This document shows, one piece after another, positions 7,591 to 20,181 of a DNA stretch of 20,181 nt. The position numbers and the translations under genes are program-made. Below the pieces are notes generated by a model. That model was not told the origin of the DNA. It did not search any database and was given only the letters and a program-made list of their open reading frames with translations. Each line of letters opens with the position of its first letter. Positions within the stretch are counted from its first letter, which is position 1. This DNA is from a virus: positions 1-20,181 of the IMG/VR virus record IMGVR_UViG_3300032213_000255. One strand, given 5' to 3'.

Positions 7591-7781
7591 ACGAAGGTAA
7601 ACTGCTCAATTTTTTGAAGCAGGCCCAGTTGCAATTTTCTGTGGACGCCCTGAAACGTCCACAGGAACGCGATGCCTTTGAGTATGGGTATCGCGTCGGC
7701 GTAGTTGCCGGATACGAGGCAGCTATTGGCGTGCTGTTAAAACTCATCGAAGAGGAGAAATCTGGTGGTAACGACTTCTGA
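7587..7781 (+). CDS. Small helical protein, unknown function
   Basis: A 64-residue protein from GTG 7587, which overlaps the preceding stop as GTGA, suggesting coupled translation. The sequence looks helical. It has one moderately hydrophobic stretch (YRVGVVAGYEAAIGVLLKLI, about 38-57) ending in EEEKSGG; it could be an amphipathic helix rather than a true membrane span. The last 17 bases overlap the co-chaperonin gene in another frame, and its EEEK codons supply that gene's AGGAG site. The function is unknown. Confidence 0.65.
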   Translation: MNEGKLLNFLKQAQLQFSVDALKRPQERDAFEYGYRVGVVAGYEAAIGVLLKLIEEEKSGGNDF

Positions 7782-8172
7782 GGACGCCCTGGCAGAGGCT
7801 TTCCCGGATGTAAATCCGGGCGTTCAGCCTTTTGGGAGCCGCGTTCTGGTTCAAATCCGTACCCCTCGCAAAGTCACAAAGGGCGGTATCATCCTGTCCT
7901 CTGACACGCAGGACACCGAAAAGTGGAACACTCAGGTGGCCAAGGTGGTCAGCGTTGGGTCGTTGGCGTTCCGAAATCGGACCACGCAAGAGTTCTGGCC
8001 CGAAGGCGCGTGGTGCGTGCAAGGCGATTTCGTCCGCGTGCCGAAATACGGCGGCGACCGCTGGGAAGTGGCGATCAACCGCGACGACAGCGCCATGTTC
8101 GTGATCTTTAACGATTTGGATATTATCGGCCAAGTCACGGGTGATCCGCTGACGGTCAAGGCTTTCATCTGA
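7765..8172 (+). CDS. GroES-like co-chaperonin (Cpn10 family)
   Basis: A 135-residue Cpn10-type protein expected to cap GroEL rings while a client folds. After about 20 extra N-terminal residues, PFGSRVLVQI aligns with the first strand of GroES. KGGIIL (39-44) matches the GroES mobile loop SAGGIVL, so Ile42-Ile43-Leu44 would be the GroEL contact triplet. EGAWCVQGDFVRVPKYGG corresponds to the VGDIV strand and roof loop, and FNDLDIIGQV to the final strand. At 135 residues it is longer than bacterial GroES (97) and nearer T4 gp31 (111), with a longer middle segment. GTG 7765 is preceded by GAGGAG. The position just before the scaffold and capsid genes suggests capsid folding as its main task, by analogy with gp31. 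No GroEL gene is in the window, so it would use host GroEL. Confidence 0.85.
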   Translation: MVTTSEDALAEAFPDVNPGVQPFGSRVLVQIRTPRKVTKGGIILSSDTQDTEKWNTQVAKVVSVGSLAFRNRTTQEFWPEGAWCVQGDFVRVPKYGGDRWEVAINRDDSAMFVIFNDLDIIGQVTGDPLTVKAFI

Positions 8173-13356: not shown

Positions 13357-13392
13357 CTGAACCAGCGACCGTCGCCTTTGAGCGGAGAAAGC

Positions 13393-14373
13393 ATGGCCTA
13401 TTCAGGTAATATCGGCGGCACCACGTTTAATGCGCTGAAGGTGGTTGATCACGCCTTCCGGCGGTGCCGTCTGCCTGCCCAGGCCATCACGTCTGAGATG
13501 CAGTCATATGCTCTCGATTCGCTTTATCTCATGCTCTCCGAACTGGCGAACATCAAAACGCCAAGCTGGTGCATCGAGAAGCTCATTCTGCCGATGTACG
13601 AGAACCAGCCCTTGGTAACGCTGCCTGTCGGCACGGTTGAAGTGCTGAACCTCAATTACCGCACGCTTCAGCTTCTCAGCGGTGCCACGGTGAGCACCTC
13701 GACCAGCTACACGGTGAACTTCACCAGCGCGACCGTGGTGAACACGGTAGGCGTCGAGTGGAGCGGTGCGGGCGTCAACCTCACCTTTCAGGTCAGCAAC
13801 AACGGCACGACCTGGGTGACGGTCGGCACGCAAACGACAGCGGCGGTTGCCGGTGACATCACATGGACCGACATCAGCGTCGGCCTGCCCTATCAATATT
13901 TCCGCATCACCTCGGCCAGCACGATCAACTACACCGCGATCACCCTGGGCAATCTGCCGCAGGAAATCCCGCTCGGGCAGTTGAACCGCGATAGCTACGT
14001 CAACCAGTCCAACAAGGTGTTTCCGGGCCGACCCAGCAGCTACTATTTCCTGCGCGATCTGCCCGAGCCGGTGGTGTACCTGTGGCCCGCGCCGTTCTCT
14101 GCGGCTGAACAGGCCCAACTTGTGCTGTGGCGGCATCGCCAGATCATGGACACCGAGAACCTTCAGCAGGAGGTTGAGGTGCCTGACAGGTGGCTCGAGG
14201 CGATCACGAATGGCCTCGCTGCCCGCATGGCGGCTGAGACGCCTGCTGTCGATCTGAACCTGATCCCGGTGCTCGAAGCACGCGCCAACATGTCGATGCA
14301 GCGTGCCTGGGATGGAGATAACGACGGCTCGCCCACCCAGATCAACCCGGGCATTCGGGCATACACCGCATGA
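13393..14373 (+). CDS. Head-tail adaptor (P22 gp4-like) with inserted beta domain
   Basis: A 326-residue protein likely to form the ring under the portal that joins head to tail. The helical N-terminus (TTFNALKVVDHAFRRCRL, then ITSEMQSYALDSLYLMLSEL) is the family-type start. The C-terminal part has LGQLNRDSYVNQSNKVFPGR, PSSYYFLRD and VVYLWPAP, followed by VPDRWLEAITNGLAARMAAE. Between them, residues about 92-184 form a Ser/Thr-rich beta domain (SNNGTTWVTVGTQ, PYQYFRITSAS). It looks like an Ig- or discoidin-type fold and makes the protein much longer than P22 gp4 (about 166). ATG 13393 is chosen over TTG 13378 because GGAGAAAGC precedes it. The stop overlaps the next start as ATGA. Its presence is the best evidence for a short-tailed particle. 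Confidence 0.8.
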   Translation: MAYSGNIGGTTFNALKVVDHAFRRCRLPAQAITSEMQSYALDSLYLMLSELANIKTPSWCIEKLILPMYENQPLVTLPVGTVEVLNLNYRTLQLLSGATVSTSTSYTVNFTSATVVNTVGVEWSGAGVNLTFQVSNNGTTWVTVGTQTTAAVAGDITWTDISVGLPYQYFRITSASTINYTAITLGNLPQEIPLGQLNRDSYVNQSNKVFPGRPSSYYFLRDLPEPVVYLWPAPFSAAEQAQLVLWRHRQIMDTENLQQEVEVPDRWLEAITNGLAARMAAETPAVDLNLIPVLEARANMSMQRAWDGDNDGSPTQINPGIRAYTA

Positions 14374-14678
14374 GTGGTGGCAAGTTTCTTGATCCGACCG
14401 GTCAATCCACCTACGGCATTGGCATCTGCGGGCGCTGCTCGCGCAAGATGTTCCTTGCCGAGCTTTCGCCCGATCCGAACTTTCCGGGCTTGATGGTGTG
14501 CGATCTGGATCGTGATCAATACGACCCCTACCGCCTCGCCCCCCGAGCGCCGGATCAGATCGTGCTGCCGTTCAATCGACCTGATACGCCTATCAATACG
14601 CGCCCGGCTGGTGTTATTCAGGAGCAAGGCGACGAGTTCTTCATCACGGAAGACGGCAACGGGTATCTGGAGTTCTAA
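14370..14678 (+). CDS. Small Cys-containing protein, degenerate zinc-ribbon-like
   Basis: A 102-residue protein with CGRC at 20-23 and a third cysteine at 44 in LMVCDLDRDQYDPYRL. A regular four-cysteine ribbon would have its fourth cysteine at 47, where this protein has Asp. It could bind zinc with Asp as a ligand, or the site may be lost. The C-terminal half has APRAPDQIVLPFNRPDT and ends in DEFFITEDGNGYLEF. Proteins with C..C, DPYRL and RPD recur between adaptor and fibre genes of aquatic phages, as I recall, with unknown role. It overlaps the adaptor by four bases and the fibre gene by one. A small tail-assembly or tail structural protein is plausible. Confidence 0.7.
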   Translation: MSGGKFLDPTGQSTYGIGICGRCSRKMFLAELSPDPNFPGLMVCDLDRDQYDPYRLAPRAPDQIVLPFNRPDTPINTRPAGVIQEQGDEFFITEDGNGYLEF

Positions 14679-16774
14679 TGACCGACGTACCTAGCAATCT
14701 CATTCCGACGCGGATCACGCAGCTACCTGTCGCCCCGGTGGCTGACGAAAACTCGCTGATGATGATTGTCTACCAGGGCAACAACTATCAGATTCGCGTC
14801 GGTGATCTGCTCTCGGTTGCCGGTGTGCCCACATCGAGGCAAGTGATCGCAGGCACCGGCATGACCGGCGGCGGCCAGCTTACCTCAAACGTCACGCTGA
14901 GCATCGCCCCCGGCGGCGTGGGTTCCACCCAGCTTGCCAGTTCTGGCGTCACGCCGGGTTCCTACGGCACTGCGACCGACATCCCGGTCTTCACGGTGGA
15001 TGCCACGGGTCGCGTCATGGCGGCTACCACGGTGCCCGCGACGATCAGCGGATATGTTCCCGACAGCCGACAGGTTAACACAGGGGCCGGTCTCAGCGGC
15101 GGTGGTGCCCTCACCAGCAACCTGACGATCACAGCCAATCTGAGCAGTGCCACGCCGCTGGCCGGGTTCCAGGCAGGCTCCGCAGGCTCGTCCAACAACA
15201 TCACTCGGGCGGATCACAAACACCCGGCGGTCAACCTCGGCGTTGATGACGAAGTTGACGGCATCCTCGGCCTGGGTAACGGCGGCACCGCCCGAAGCAT
15301 CGTGGCGGCGGCTGGTGCTATCATCTGGTCGGGTGCCGATGGCCTGTATGTTGGACCGGTCGGCATTGCCGGTCAGGTGCTCGTTTCTGGCGGAACCGGT
15401 GCCCCCACATGGGGCTCGGCCATCGTTGTTAGCGACCAAGCCGCCAATGTGGTCTATGCGGGTCCGGCGGCTGGACCGGCGGCTCCGACCGGCTTCCGAG
15501 CCTTGGTCACGGCAGACCTGCCCAATTCTGGCGCATCCGCTGGAACCTACGGCTCTCAGGCGGTCGTGCCTGTCATTGCCGTGAACGCTAAGGGCCAAGT
15601 CACCTCTGCGACGAACACGACGATCAACGCGGTTACGTTGACGACCGGCAGCATCACGACTGCGCCGACCAATGGCACCGACATCGTCAACAAGAATTAC
15701 GCCGATTCCATCGCGGCGGGCATCAATTTTCACCAATCTTGCCGTTTGGCTTCAACGGCAGCGTTGCCGACCTGCACATATAACAACGGGTCGTCTGGTG
15801 TTGGCGCAACGCTGACTGCCACGGCGAATGCGGCCCTGTCGGTCGATAGCACGCTGGTCGTGGCCACCAACCGCGTGCTGGTTAAGAACCAAGCCAATCA
15901 AGCCCACAACGGCGTTTACGTTGTCACTCAGACTGGCAGCGGTGCCGCGCCATTTATCCTCACCCGAGCAACTGATTTTGACACTCCGGGTTCGGGCGTC
16001 AATCAGATCGACGCGGGCGACTTTTTCCTGATCACGGCGGGCACCGCAAACGCTAACACGTCATGGGTGCAGCAAACGCCACTGCCCATCACGGTCGGCA
16101 CCACGGCAATCGTGTTCTCGCAGTTCGGTGCGGCGGGTACGACATACACGGCAGGCACGGGCCTGACGCTTGCCGGGACCGTCTTCAGCATCACCAACAC
16201 GGCGGTGACGGCGGCTTCCTACGGCTCAGCCTCGGCGGTTCCCACATACACCGTGAATGCCCAGGGCCAGTTGACTGCGGCGGCTGACACCTCAATCGCG
16301 ATTGCTGCCACCCAGGTCACATCCGGCACGCTGGATTCGGGACGCCTGAGCGGCTCTTACACGGGCATCACGGGCGTCGGCACCCTGACCGCCGGGACGT
16401 GGAACGCGACGACCATCGCAATAGCGTATGGCGGCACGAATGGCACCGCCACACCCACGGCGGGTGCGGTGTCTTACGGCACTGGAACGGCGTATGCCTT
16501 CAGCGCGGCAGGCACTGCCAGCCAAGTTCTGCTTTCTGGTGGGGTGGGGTCTCCGACCTGGGCCGATCAGTCGTCGTTGTCTGTGGGTTCGGCCACCAGC
16601 GCAACTAGCGCCACGACGGCCACTAACCTTGCCGGTGGCGCGGCCAGCCGCATTCCGTATCAGACTGGTGCTGGAACCACGGCGTTCATTGCCAATGGCA
16701 CTGCCGGGCAGGTATTGGTGTCTGCGGGAGCCAGCGCGCCCGCTTGGGGTGGCATCGACGGGGGCACATTCTGA
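14678..16774 (+). CDS. Tail fibre protein with modular repeats
   Basis: A 698-residue, Gly/Thr/Ala-rich fibrous protein, probably trimeric, that would contact the host. Residues 1-60 (TRITQLPVAPVADENSLMMI, YQIRVGDLL) resemble virion-anchoring starts of phage fibres. The shaft carries three copies of a (S/T)YGSA..VP..VxAxGxVT unit starting near 93, 288 and 512, with G(T/A)GLTL-type turns between. It also has three Q-V-L-(V/L)-S-(G/A)-G..(A/S)P.W units near 238, 620 and 682. A distinct domain at about 338-485 starts NKNYADSIAAGINFHQSCRL and contains NRVLVKNQANQAHNGVYVV, which is common in phage fibres. The end is WGGIDGGTF. The start overlaps the preceding stop by one base (TAATG), as does its own stop with the next ATG. 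Confidence 0.85.
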   Translation: MTDVPSNLIPTRITQLPVAPVADENSLMMIVYQGNNYQIRVGDLLSVAGVPTSRQVIAGTGMTGGGQLTSNVTLSIAPGGVGSTQLASSGVTPGSYGTATDIPVFTVDATGRVMAATTVPATISGYVPDSRQVNTGAGLSGGGALTSNLTITANLSSATPLAGFQAGSAGSSNNITRADHKHPAVNLGVDDEVDGILGLGNGGTARSIVAAAGAIIWSGADGLYVGPVGIAGQVLVSGGTGAPTWGSAIVVSDQAANVVYAGPAAGPAAPTGFRALVTADLPNSGASAGTYGSQAVVPVIAVNAKGQVTSATNTTINAVTLTTGSITTAPTNGTDIVNKNYADSIAAGINFHQSCRLASTAALPTCTYNNGSSGVGATLTATANAALSVDSTLVVATNRVLVKNQANQAHNGVYVVTQTGSGAAPFILTRATDFDTPGSGVNQIDAGDFFLITAGTANANTSWVQQTPLPITVGTTAIVFSQFGAAGTTYTAGTGLTLAGTVFSITNTAVTAASYGSASAVPTYTVNAQGQLTAAADTSIAIAATQVTSGTLDSGRLSGSYTGITGVGTLTAGTWNATTIAIAYGGTNGTATPTAGAVSYGTGTAYAFSAAGTASQVLLSGGVGSPTWADQSSLSVGSATSATSATTATNLAGGAASRIPYQTGAGTTAFIANGTAGQVLVSAGASAPAWGGIDGGTF

Positions 16775-17119: not shown

Positions 17120-17836
17120 ATGATGGCCGCCAGCGGATTTACGCCGATCCAGTTGTACCGCACGACGACCGCTGCGGCGGTGCCGTTGACTGCGAACCTT
17201 GCGCCCGGCGAACTCGCGATCAACATCGCAAACACCGACATGGCGCTGTTTGCTGAAAACGCCTCGGGCACCGTCGTTCGCCTGATGAACAACCCGGCGG
17301 GGTTGAAATACCCCACCGCCGATGGCACGAATGGTCAGGTGGTCACGACCAACGGGTCGGGCACGCTTACATTCTCGACGCCTTCGAGTGGTCTGACGGT
17401 CGGCACCACATCTATTACCGGCGGCACGTCTGGTTATGCCCTGTTCAACAACGCAGGCACGCTGGGTAACACCAACACGCTGACGAGCTTCACGCTGTCT
17501 GCTGTGACCATCAACGACGGCTATACCGAAGAGACGGTCACAGCCAACACGACCACGGCTTACACAATTTCTCTTGCCAACGGCACCTTGCAAATCCTGA
17601 CGCTGACTGGCAATTGCACGTTTACGTTCCCAACAGCCACCGCAGGTCAGTCGTTCATGATGTTCCTGAAGCAGGACGCTACCGGCAGTAGAACCGTGAC
17701 GTGGCCTGCGGCGGTCAAGTGGCCAAACTCAGTTGCACCGACAATTACCTCGACAGCCAGCAAAGGCGATAAATTCGTGTTCACTGCTGATGGTACGAAC
17801 TGGCTGGGTTCAGTTGCTGGGCAGAATTACCTCTAA
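17120..17836 (+). CDS. Fibre-type structural protein
   Basis: A 238-residue protein. The N-terminus (GFTPIQLYRTTTAAAVPLTA, then LAPGELAINIA) is a common start of phage tail or baseplate-linked fibres. The middle (about 75-135) is Gly/Thr-rich shaft (GTNGQVVTTNGSGTLTF). The C-terminal domain (about 140-238) has TLTGNCTFTFPTATAGQSFM, LKQDATGSRTVTWPAAVKWP and FVFTADGTNWLGSVAGQNYL, a widespread fibre-end or structural domain. GAGG is four bases before ATG 17120 and seven before ATG 17123, so the second ATG may be the real start. The stop overlaps the propeller gene by one base (TAATG). The two are probably co-translated and may act together at the tail tip. Confidence 0.75.
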   Translation: MMAASGFTPIQLYRTTTAAAVPLTANLAPGELAINIANTDMALFAENASGTVVRLMNNPAGLKYPTADGTNGQVVTTNGSGTLTFSTPSSGLTVGTTSITGGTSGYALFNNAGTLGNTNTLTSFTLSAVTINDGYTEETVTANTTTAYTISLANGTLQILTLTGNCTFTFPTATAGQSFMMFLKQDATGSRTVTWPAAVKWPNSVAPTITSTASKGDKFVFTADGTNWLGSVAGQNYL

Positions 17837-19860
17837 TGTTTAGCGCAAACACAACTCAGGTTGCGCTCGCAACACCGGCCAGGGCAATTGCGGTTGGAAG
17901 TGCAGGTAATCCGTACATCAACGTATATTCATGGACGACAGCGAGCGGCTTTGGAGCTAAGTATGCTAATCCTGCCACTTTGCCCACAGACGTTTATGGT
18001 GTAGCATTTAGCCCTAATGGGTCAGAAATAGCGGCTGCGGCAAGCTCAAGCCCGTATATTTTTGCTTACCCTTGGTCTGGGAATGGGTTTGGAACTAAAT
18101 ATTCTAACCCAGCCACGTTGCCTGGAACTGATTGTCGCAGTGTGGCGTTTACCGCTAATGGAAGCGCAATAGCAGTTGGTTCAACAGGTACTCCTTTTAT
18201 AACAGCATATCCTTGGTCCAGTTCTGGGTTTGGAACCAAGTATGCAAATCCCGCTGTTTTGCCAGCGACGTTTGGTTACAGCGTGGCATTTGACCCCAGC
18301 GGTTCAGCTATATCTGTCGGAACGGCAGTTGGAGTTGATGCTTATGCGTGGTCTTCTTCTGGATTTGGGACAAAATACTCCGCCCCTTCGACCTTGCCAG
18401 GGAGTGGTTATGGTGTAGCTTTTAGTCCAGACGGAAATTCTTTGGCCGTTGCTTCAATAGTTTCACCATTTATTTATGTATACCCCTGGACAACAGCAAG
18501 TGGTTTTGGAACTAAGTACGCCAATCCGGCTACTTTACCAACAGGTAACGGGCTTAGCGTAGCATTTAGTCCTAATAACAGAGCAATTGCCGTTGGTCAC
18601 AATACAACCCCGTTCGTGTCTGCATATCCGTGGACAGGTTCCAGCTTTGGAACCAAATACGCTAACCCATCCACCTTGCCGGCTGGTACAGGTTATGGCG
18701 TAGCGTTCAGCAAAGACGCCGGAGCCCTAGCAGTGGCTCATATTACCAGTCCCAACGTCTCAGTATATGCGTGGTCCGCAAGCGGTTTTGGAGCCAAATA
18801 CGCCGATCCATCAACTGCGGTGGGCTCTCTCGGTACGAGCGTCGCCTTCACATCCGGCGGGTATCCGGTTCAGCAGATTGCTGTTGCTCATGCCACATCT
18901 CCTTATGTGACAGCGTATCCGTGGTCTTCTAGTGGATTTGGTACTAAGTATGCTGATCCGGCGACATTACCGGCCGGAACCAGTGTCAAAATTGCGTTTA
19001 ACCCTGATGGCACTGCTGTTGCTGCTATTTCTCCCGCAGGGGCAATATCTGCATATCCCTGGTCAGGTTCTGGATTTGGCACTAAATACTCAGACCCTTC
19101 AAGCGGATCTTCAGGACGTGGTGTAGCATTTAGTCCTAACGGTCTTGCCATAGCTATTGGAACACAGTCCACATCGCCTTATGTGGATGTATATAGATGG
19201 TCTTCAAGCGGCTTTGGAATTAAATATTCTGATCCGGCAACACCGCCAACCACCAGATCAAATAGTGTAGTGTTTAGTCCTGACAATTCTGCCATTGCAA
19301 CAGTTAATGACTCAACTCCATTTGTATTTGTATACCCGTGGACCACAGCAAGTGGTTTTGGAACTAAATATGCTAATCCTTCAACATTGCCAACTGGCAT
19401 TGGAAATGCTGTAGCATTCAGCCCAAACGGTTCGGCAATTGCTGTTGCTCATAATACAACACCGTATGTGTCCGCTTATCCTTGGACAACGGCTGGTGGG
19501 TTTGGAACTAAATATGCAAACCCGGCGACCCTGCCAACTGGCAATGGAACTGGCGTTGCCTTTAGCCCGGACAGTTCTGCTATCGCAATTTCGTTTGATG
19601 ATACACCTTATATTTCAGCATATCCATGGTCTGGCTCTGGTTTTGGAACTAAATATGCTAATCCGGCTACGCTTCCGACAGGCCCTGGGCGCACCGTTGC
19701 ATTCAATAGTGATGGTTCTGCTATTGCAATTGCGTTTGATACAACACCATTTATAACTGCATATCCGTGGTCCGGCTCTGGTTTTGGAACTAAGTATGCT
19801 AATCCGGCTACGCTGCCGACAGGCACTGGCTACGGCGTTGCCTTCAACACAATCATTTAG
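17836..19860 (+). CDS. Fourteen-repeat WD40-like beta-propeller protein
   Basis: A 674-residue protein made almost wholly of 14 repeats of about 44-50 residues. The consensus is AIAVAHxTxPYVxAYPWSxSGFGTKYANPATLPTGxGxxVAFSPDGS. The VAFSPDG, AIAV and YPW parts match the inner strands of WD40 blades, although the usual WD dipeptide is PW here. Fourteen repeats fit two seven-bladed propellers. The sequence begins at the AIAV strand and ends after VAF, which would let the ends close a ring. No catalytic motif, signal peptide or anchor is seen. G+C is lower than next door: 27 of 60 bases at 18061-18120 against 36 of 60 at 17701-17760. There is no clear ribosome site, so it is probably coupled to the gene before it by TAATG. 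A receptor-binding or glycan-binding tail protein is the best guess. Confidence 0.8.
   Translation: MFSANTTQVALATPARAIAVGSAGNPYINVYSWTTASGFGAKYANPATLPTDVYGVAFSPNGSEIAAAASSSPYIFAYPWSGNGFGTKYSNPATLPGTDCRSVAFTANGSAIAVGSTGTPFITAYPWSSSGFGTKYANPAVLPATFGYSVAFDPSGSAISVGTAVGVDAYAWSSSGFGTKYSAPSTLPGSGYGVAFSPDGNSLAVASIVSPFIYVYPWTTASGFGTKYANPATLPTGNGLSVAFSPNNRAIAVGHNTTPFVSAYPWTGSSFGTKYANPSTLPAGTGYGVAFSKDAGALAVAHITSPNVSVYAWSASGFGAKYADPSTAVGSLGTSVAFTSGGYPVQQIAVAHATSPYVTAYPWSSSGFGTKYADPATLPAGTSVKIAFNPDGTAVAAISPAGAISAYPWSGSGFGTKYSDPSSGSSGRGVAFSPNGLAIAIGTQSTSPYVDVYRWSSSGFGIKYSDPATPPTTRSNSVVFSPDNSAIATVNDSTPFVFVYPWTTASGFGTKYANPSTLPTGIGNAVAFSPNGSAIAVAHNTTPYVSAYPWTTAGGFGTKYANPATLPTGNGTGVAFSPDSSAIAISFDDTPYISAYPWSGSGFGTKYANPATLPTGPGRTVAFNSDGSAIAIAFDTTPFITAYPWSGSGFGTKYANPATLPTGTGYGVAFNTII
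17878..19857 (+). repeat. Fourteen tandem coding repeats of about 130-150 bases
   Basis: Each unit contains a TATCCNTGG-type block (YPW) and TTTGGAACTAAATATGCTAA-type block (FGTKYAN). The last two units are nearly identical over about 70 bases (from 19618 and 19759), and units 1, 5, 11 and 12 share an extra TTA(S/G) insert (YPWTTASGFG). Such an array could gain or lose blades by recombination. Confidence 0.85.
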
Positions 19861-19872
19861 AAGAGAGAAAAA

Positions 19873-20142
19873 ATGACCGATACCACCAAAGAAACCCCGA
19901 AAACCCGCGAGGAAATCCTCGCCGTCAACCTAGAAGCCCGCGAGCAAGAGGTGATGCACTACCAGATCAACATCGACAACTATACGCTGGCGCTTGATAA
20001 CATCGCCTCCATGAACAGCAGCGACCGCGCTGAACTGTCTGGCTTTGTCGATCAGTTGACTGGCCTTCTCGCCTCTGAGCGGCTGGAGCAGAAGAAGGCT
20101 AAGGTGATGCTGGCGGTGCTAAAGCAGCAATTGGGAGACTGA
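19873..20142 (+). CDS. Small coiled-coil phage protein, possible fibre chaperone
   Basis: An 89-residue charged helical protein. After a hydrophilic start (MTDTTKETPKTREE), it shows LEAREQEVMHYQINIDNYTL, which resembles a recurrent pattern (REQEV.YQINIDNY) of small phage proteins near fibre genes by recollection. The second half (ELSGFVDQLTGLLASERLEQ, then KKAKVMLAVLKQQLG) is heptad-like. AGAGAGAAAA before the ATG is a modest ribosome site. It follows the propeller gene by 12 bases and precedes the next start by one. A helper for folding or attaching the fibre/propeller protein is plausible from size and place, but no diagnostic motif supports it. Confidence 0.68.
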   Translation: MTDTTKETPKTREEILAVNLEAREQEVMHYQINIDNYTLALDNIASMNSSDRAELSGFVDQLTGLLASERLEQKKAKVMLAVLKQQLGD

Positions 20143-20143
20143 G

Positions 20144-20181
20144 ATGCTCTACGTCAAAGCCATCGACAATCAGATCGTCGC
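20144..20181 (+). CDS. Start of a downstream phage gene, 3' end missing
   Basis: An open frame begins at ATG 20144 one base after the previous stop and runs off the window. It encodes MLYVKAIDNQIVA. GGGAG lies eight bases upstream, inside the preceding gene. Openings of the MxYVKxxDGxV type are seen in small phage tail-region proteins by recollection, but twelve codons are too few to assign a family. Confidence 0.5.
   Translation, partial: MLYVKAIDNQIV

Follow-up and report, generated by a model that had tools for sequence, protein, structure and literature searches.

A double WD40-like propeller gene overlapping a tail-fibre gene in an uncultured aquatic phage: a probable exchangeable receptor-binding head

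Genes at the locus and the blade repeats

The window, that is, the whole stretch of DNA that was analysed, is a complete IMG/VR record of 20,181 bases and represents a linear fragment. Two tail-fibre-like genes near its end are followed by an intact reading frame, open over 674 codons, and by a small conserved gene (Table 1). The original prediction had placed the 674-residue product behind fibre genes, and a tail-fibre-like gene (PHROG 9017) lies immediately upstream.

Table 1. Features in the 3' part of the window
Feature	Position	Strand	Evidence or remark
Tail-fibre gene, 698 aa, same cluster	14678..16774	+	PHROG 8745 tail fiber, 7.5e-24
Upstream fibre gene, 238 aa, tail-fibre-like, ending NWLGSVAGQNYL	17120..17836	+	PHROG 9017 tail fiber, 5e-14
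C-terminal fibre domain, class A4	17489..17833	+	homologous to the domain of the other main class, A6, hhalign 98.7%
TAATG, one-base overlap of fibre stop and propeller start	17834..17838	+	sequence
CDS, 674-aa double WD40-like propeller	17836..19860, stop included	+	ORF, repeats, Pfam, AlphaFold, Foldseek
Tag MFSANTTQV, putative docking peptide	17836..17862	+	tag comparisons; AlphaFold pLDDT <50, residues 1-14
Predicted ring 1, blades 1-7, residues about 15-339	17878..18852	+	repeats, AlphaFold, linker
Ring-to-ring linker SGGYPVQ, residues 340-346, inside unit 7 between strands a and b	18853..18873	+	alignment; also exchange breakpoint in L005/L035
Predicted ring 2, blades 8-14, residues 345-674, as modelled alone	18868..19857	+	AlphaFold, Foldseek
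Conserved 89-aa gene, no family assigned	19873..20142	+	conserved in related loci
ORF start, cut by window end	20144..20181	+	L082 counterpart Phage_tail_APC (PF16778), by position only

Elsewhere in the window, a GIY-YIG nuclease ORF lies right behind the terminase gene (1115-1762; 27.5 bits, cut-off 22.6), and a GroES/Cpn10-like ORF lies next to the portal gene (7765-8172; 37.1 bits, cut-off 21.1). An adaptor-like protein is encoded at 13378-14373 (SU10_adaptor, 26.1 bits, slightly below the cut-off of 27), in which an apparent F5/8-type C (galactose-binding-like) stretch was also seen, below its cut-off.

In the 674-residue protein, the motif FG.KY occurs 14 times at a spacing of 45-50 residues, 47 being the commonest, and the BLOSUM autocorrelation is highest at lag 47 (0.77 per residue), with the next multiple at 94; the maximum for shuffled sequences (n = 200) was -0.28, far under the real value. 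The last unit stops after strand a, and the missing strands b and c are provided by the N-terminus. The N-terminal and C-terminal half-blades together form the 14th blade, and the chain therefore holds 14 blades, which bears out the count of two times seven that had been made by hand.

The blade strands are VAFSPDG-like, with YPW at the position of "WD", as had been read from the sequence before; W occupies this position in 1213 of 1274 distinct units, mostly after P. The GH dipeptide is absent from the blade consensus, which thus lacks the GH/WD pair; these dipeptides are common in WD40 repeats, not obligatory. The Pfam WD40 family (PF00400) matched the whole protein with 31.2 bits, above the curated cut-off of 27, and none of its single repeats passed that cut-off alone. 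The blade length of 45-50 residues fits the 40-60 residues and four strands of WD40 blades; according to DSSP on the models, strands a, b, and c are visible, and the outer strand d often comprises two residues only. Matches to TIGR03836 (HMW1) and Beta-prop_EML/THOC3 lay under their own cut-offs and were discarded.

Among proteins of solved structure, the WRAP-T designer WD40 propellers (best PDB match v13WRAP-T, 3.6e-14) and the WD40 domain of bacterial PkwA are closest in sequence. The high blade-to-blade similarity within the chain, as seen in the lag-47 autocorrelation, agrees with the highly repetitive WD40 propellers, which are found in all domains of life with viruses as a minor group (PMC9218822). 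Recently amplified, near-identical blades are shared with the WRAP designs and 2ymu (PMC9218822, PMC8458387; PDB 2ymu, 7bid). However, 2ymu is cellular and WRAP-T is designed, whereas the present protein is viral, carries YPW for WD, and begins with an N-terminal tag.

Predicted rings and blade number in relatives

The AlphaFold model of the whole protein reached a pLDDT of 88.6, and that of ring 2 alone a pLDDT of 91.3 and a pTM of 0.90. With a pTM of 0.62 for the whole model, it is uncertain how the two rings are placed relative to each other. Foldseek searches with the whole model retrieved 1nr0 (two seven-bladed propellers), 2ymu (a two-propeller chain), and the seven-bladed 7bid, with a TMt of 0.81. 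Ring 2 matched seven-bladed structures with TM-scores of 0.69-0.78 (TMq/TMt: 7bid, 0.69/0.78; 4qrj, 0.78/0.75; 1ri6, 0.76/0.76).

In an alignment of 14-blade relatives (n = 36), unit 7 is the only one in which an insert separates strand a (VAF) from strand b (AIAV), and its register is that at which the propeller chain starts and finishes. Thus, the first and last blade are split in each ring, with the linker at the same register, as is found in closed rings. The linker insert was detected at unit 7 in 29 of 37 unique complete 14-mers, with none above the threshold in the other eight; each of the four 21-mers has it twice, at units 7 and 14. Two loci, L046 and L081, encode the rings in separate adjacent genes, each with seven blades.

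Seven, 14, or 21 blades were counted in 141 of 151 non-redundant complete relatives, a distribution that fits closed rings. Because two of the scans had used 14- or 7-blade queries, the count was repeated on neighbour-anchored loci, where it was 7, 14, or 21 in 25 of the 28 loci fetched via the neighbouring fibre gene and in 34 of the 38 fetched via the downstream 89-aa gene. The 10 exceptions have 6, 8, 9, 12, 13, or 15 blades, and seven is thus not absolute; they often retain one seven-blade ring (L050, 7+6; L056, 6+7; L060, 8+7). Raw counts of 13 or 15 blades for L071, L076, L079, L037, and L029 were rejected as the result of degenerate or split blades, these being 14-mers by length and strand counts. 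Near-identical neighbouring blades within eight-blade rings were observed in L060 (3043-5283) and L128 (4912-6066), and probably reflect recent blade duplications, or assembly effects.

These results support a chain of 14 WD40-like blades whose predicted fold is a pair of closed rings, seven blades each, with a short linker between them. The double seven-bladed propeller of the original prediction has thus stood up to structure prediction of all 674 residues, to a fold search in which the models matched WD40-type and other seven-bladed propellers, and to the blade-7 linker and blade counts of the relatives.

Propellers can also serve as enzyme scaffolds. A depolymerase or other enzyme would have precedents in the propeller enzymes of phage fibres, the K1F and phi92 endosialidases (cited in PMC4901313), and the folds nearest to ring 2 include 6-phosphogluconolactonases. 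Nevertheless, none of the Pfam or PDB sequence matches to enzyme families exceeded its cut-off, the blades closely resemble one another, none standing out clearly as a catalytic one, and the gene persists while the number of rings and blades varies. An enzymatic role is therefore considered highly improbable.

That WD40 propellers are uncommon in phages, as stated initially, holds for cultured and GenBank phages, with 6 of 50,697 records matching, but not for uncultured ones, with at least 596 matching stretches in IMG/VR. Candidate distant homologues in cultured phages belong to Salicola phage CGphi29 and to Pseudomonas phages ZRG1 and POR1. The family already carries a WD40 label in databases: UOF80687.1 (MW202701), a "WD40 repeat protein" with 60% identity (tblastn), belongs to the same family, as does A0A6J5SDD4 of an uncultured Caudovirales phage, "WD40/YVTN repeat-like", 48% identical by fold alignment. 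Both were annotated by similarity only, with no function given. Relatives also occur on contigs binned with Dojkabacteria, Planctomycetota, actinobacterium, and Nitrosotalea MAGs (L161, L162, L163, L164, and L165), which are probably viral; in L162, an RHS repeat region lies behind the propeller. In the cultured Pseudomonas phage ZRG1 (L083:7161-8963), a tail-terminator-like N-terminus (PHROG 4204) is fused to a distant propeller, which belongs to PHROG 19311, as does the window propeller.

In some seven-bladed relatives, the propeller is fused to other domains, namely Mtd_N in L215 (48.4 bits, cut-off 26.3) and fn3 in L046, and a tail-like domain ahead of the propeller is common to eight related ORFs, including L215. 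The L215 ORF (3139-4629) consists of Mtd_N, the tail-like domain, and a seven-bladed WD40-like propeller; L217, with a 98% identical propeller, apparently has the same layout. The Mtd protein of Bordetella phage BPP-1 has a C-terminal C-type lectin domain that is diversified by a retroelement, whereas L215 places a seven-bladed propeller as the C-terminal head on Mtd_N (PF18454). A Pfam search found no Mtd_N in the window propeller protein. The fused fibre domain of the L205 type was compared with the C-terminus of the window fibre and rejected as a counterpart (hhalign, 1.2%); it is a different tail-like domain.

The slot behind the fibre gene and the N-terminal tag

Among the 112 non-redundant loci with an upstream ORF, the fibre stop and the propeller start overlap by one base in 68 and by four bases in 20 (88/112 together). 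Such a stop-start overlap typically couples translation. The propeller gene is, like gp38-type adhesin genes, a separate gene right behind the distal fibre gene, here with a conserved TAATG overlap.

When loci were collected from the fibre gene of the window, the next gene encoded a WD40-like propeller in 18 loci and something else in 41. Ten of the alternative slot proteins were tested, and Pfam assigned DUF7483, Laminin_G_3 (LamG), SPRY, Gly_rich_2, and RCC1 among them. On these sequence comparisons, the slot behind the fibre gene accommodates several interchangeable heads, of which the propeller is one. In L258 (1979-3094) and also L259, an RCC1-type propeller directly behind the fibre gene bears another tag, MPTIITGGAASARAFG, and the N-terminal part of that fibre gene is common to the window's fibre. 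In L257 (after 4962) and L400, small ORFs directly behind the fibre gene resemble homing endonucleases by eye (GIY-YIG-like, MNNSYVYALIDPRNNKPFYIGKG; HNH-like, MGRFRDLSGERFGRLLVLQK), and these might drive head exchange.

The conserved coupling bears on whether the protein belongs to the virion at all. WD40 propellers serve as general-purpose scaffolds for interactions, the WD40 proteins of cells mostly reside inside the cell, and the distant plasmid matches of the propeller sit in caspase, CHAT, and other regulatory proteins, so that an intracellular scaffold or anti-defence protein might have come to lie in the structural cluster by chance. Against such a non-virion role, the stop-start overlap with the fibre gene is conserved, unrelated heads with the same tag share the slot, and relatives are fused to Mtd_N, fn3, and fibre-like domains. 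We regard it as very unlikely.

Many of the alternative slot heads start with MFSANTTQV or a near variant. In 164 coupled pairs, the mean identity over the first nine residues was 0.472 for the same fibre with a different head, 0.171 for the same propeller head with a different fibre, and 0.162 when both differed. None of 2000 permutations reached the observed difference, in a test that ignores relatedness, and the control residues 25-33 gave no signal (0.058 vs 0.074). The tag sequence therefore tracks the class of the fibre rather than the fold of the head, a pattern suggestive of a docking code. In the whole-protein model, residues 1-14 are the sole stretch with a pLDDT below 50.

We consider it an even-odds proposition that such a docking code operates in a large group of uncultured aquatic phages, in which a tag of about nine residues would be matched to the C-terminal domain of its own fibre, unrelated folds would be swapped in one translationally coupled slot, and single rings would be swapped at the linker of multi-ring heads. 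The folds included are one, two, or three WD40-like rings, RCC1 propellers, LamG/SPRY lectins, Gly-rich adhesins, and DUF7483.

The main rival to docking, which competes with this step alone and not with the adhesin reading, is that tag similarity reflects linkage only: recombination would occur after codon 9, and the tag would be inherited with the fibre and dock nothing. Codons 1-9 are indeed nearly invariant in nucleotides within one fibre class, and identity falls steeply past residue 9-10. However, the Ala, Asn, Thr, and Gln codons of the tag show synonymous changes with the residues retained, which argues mildly against linkage alone, and the divergent MFSSNSSQV tags keep the pattern with a different spacing. 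It is also less likely that a start codon and about nine residues would be retained for nothing before unrelated folds. Linkage alone thus appears to be an unlikely but serious explanation, and the tag comparisons suggest that the tag docks the head to its own fibre.

The modularity of gp38 was reportedly described by Trojet and colleagues in 2011. The tip adhesins of S16 and T-even phages, such as S16 gp38, are encoded by a separate gene, attach N-terminally to the trimeric fibre tip, carry hypervariable distal loops, and determine host range (PMC6851490). The window protein is likewise encoded separately behind the fibre, and Gly-rich heads (Gly_rich_2) occur in the same slot. However, S16 gp38 comprises a helical bundle with three Trp and a polyglycine sandwich, whereas here a conserved N-terminus of about nine residues precedes WD40-like or unrelated heads. 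In place of the conserved Trp and polyglycine sandwich of the gp38 attachment domain, the window protein has a nine-residue tag devoid of Trp and a WD40-like head. By analogy, the propeller protein may be gp38-like in its working, not a member of the gp38 family.

Variation, head exchange, and proposed function

Over 1,274 distinct units, the highest entropies were found at blade columns 33, 17, and 15 (3.2-3.4 bits). When fixed blade positions were compared across 36 orthologues, the mean variability was 2.03 bits for the d-a loop, 1.98 for b-c, 1.67 for a-b, and 0.69 for c-d. Column entropies and loop averages thus agree with the initial reading that variation is greatest in the loops after AIAVxx and between TLP and VAF. 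In the WD40 topology, one face bears the d-a and b-c loops and the opposite one the a-b and c-d loops. The variable residues are therefore mainly on one face, which fits a one-sided binding surface, although the a-b loop is not conserved either.

In addition, heads differ strongly between near-identical genomes. L011 and L056 are 99.6% identical upstream (2,261 bases) and 97% downstream (136 bases) but 71.8% identical in the propeller, and a like pattern was seen for L028/L040, L092/L131, L228/L234, L014/L021, and others. In the seven strongly diverged propeller pairs tested, dS was 0.9-1.7. Next to near-identical flanks, such values indicate that whole propeller alleles were replaced; fast point-mutational evolution was rejected as the cause of the divergence (dN/dS about 0.14-0.30). 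Between L005 and L035, ring 1 is 98% and ring 2 64% identical, and the identity ends at the inter-ring linker, which indicates, in one clear case, that rings are exchangeable singly. A search for further whole-ring exchanges among the 14-mers found L005/L035 as the sole clear case, with L011/L074 weaker. Nearly all related loci are metagenome assemblies, in which repeats are prone to be collapsed or misjoined; the same allele with the same flanks in several separate samples (L011, L012, and L013) makes misassembly unlikely as a general cause. At the sequence level, the propeller is thus a hypervariable cassette.

Binding is deduced here from such patterns, and transient chaperone caps have been proposed for Alteromonas phage fibres (PMC10579305). 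The propeller could accordingly be a structural spacer, or a cap that protects or chaperones the fibre tip, with no part in receptor binding. The concentration of variability in loops and the swaps between near-identical genomes nonetheless fit host recognition better, and the alternative heads include lectin-like and Gly-rich folds. A spacer or cap is improbable on this evidence.

Overall, we propose, with a probability of about 0.74, that the gene product is an exchangeable receptor-binding head of the tail fibre, that is, a tip adhesin of an aquatic phage. The receptor- or glycan-binding module envisaged by the original prediction is supported indirectly by the coupling to the fibre gene, the lectin- and adhesin-like heads in the slot, the Mtd_N and fn3 fusions, the hypervariability of the cassette, and the one-face loops. 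The fibre product would form the stalk, and the first nine or so residues, MFSANTTQV, would dock the propeller protein onto the fibre C-terminal domain, comparable to gp38 capping gp37 in S16-like T-even phages. The faces with the variable d-a and b-c loops would touch the host surface, either glycan or protein, and specificity would change when the head behind the tag is replaced by another propeller allele, one ring, or an unrelated fold.

Phage propellers with known or putative roles in host recognition include the five-bladed phi11 Gp45, PRD1 P2, and the seven-bladed phiKZ gp131C (PMC4901313). These are single propeller domains or heads that are not described as WD40-repeat arrays (PMC4901313), whereas the present family comprises one to three seven-bladed rings in a separate, coupled gene. 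In the open-access literature on phage-fibre WD40 proteins, DUF7483, and exchangeable tips, we did not find a description of a double WD40-like propeller that serves as the coupled head of a fibre tip, of the 7/14/21 rule, or of a tag-marked slot with unrelated folds, which does not prove that none exists.

In uncultured phages, the parts that recognise the host vary fastest and are for that reason difficult to find. The conserved tag, the fibre C-terminus, and the stop-start overlap together flag the slot, so that a putative receptor-binding head of any fold could be read off a contig. The ring number of 7, 14, or 21 blades with linkers at the boundaries offers a natural experiment in how a repeat protein grows while keeping closure. 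Finally, the allele pairs, as cases of head replacement between near-identical genomes, open host-range turnover in lakes and seas to direct testing.
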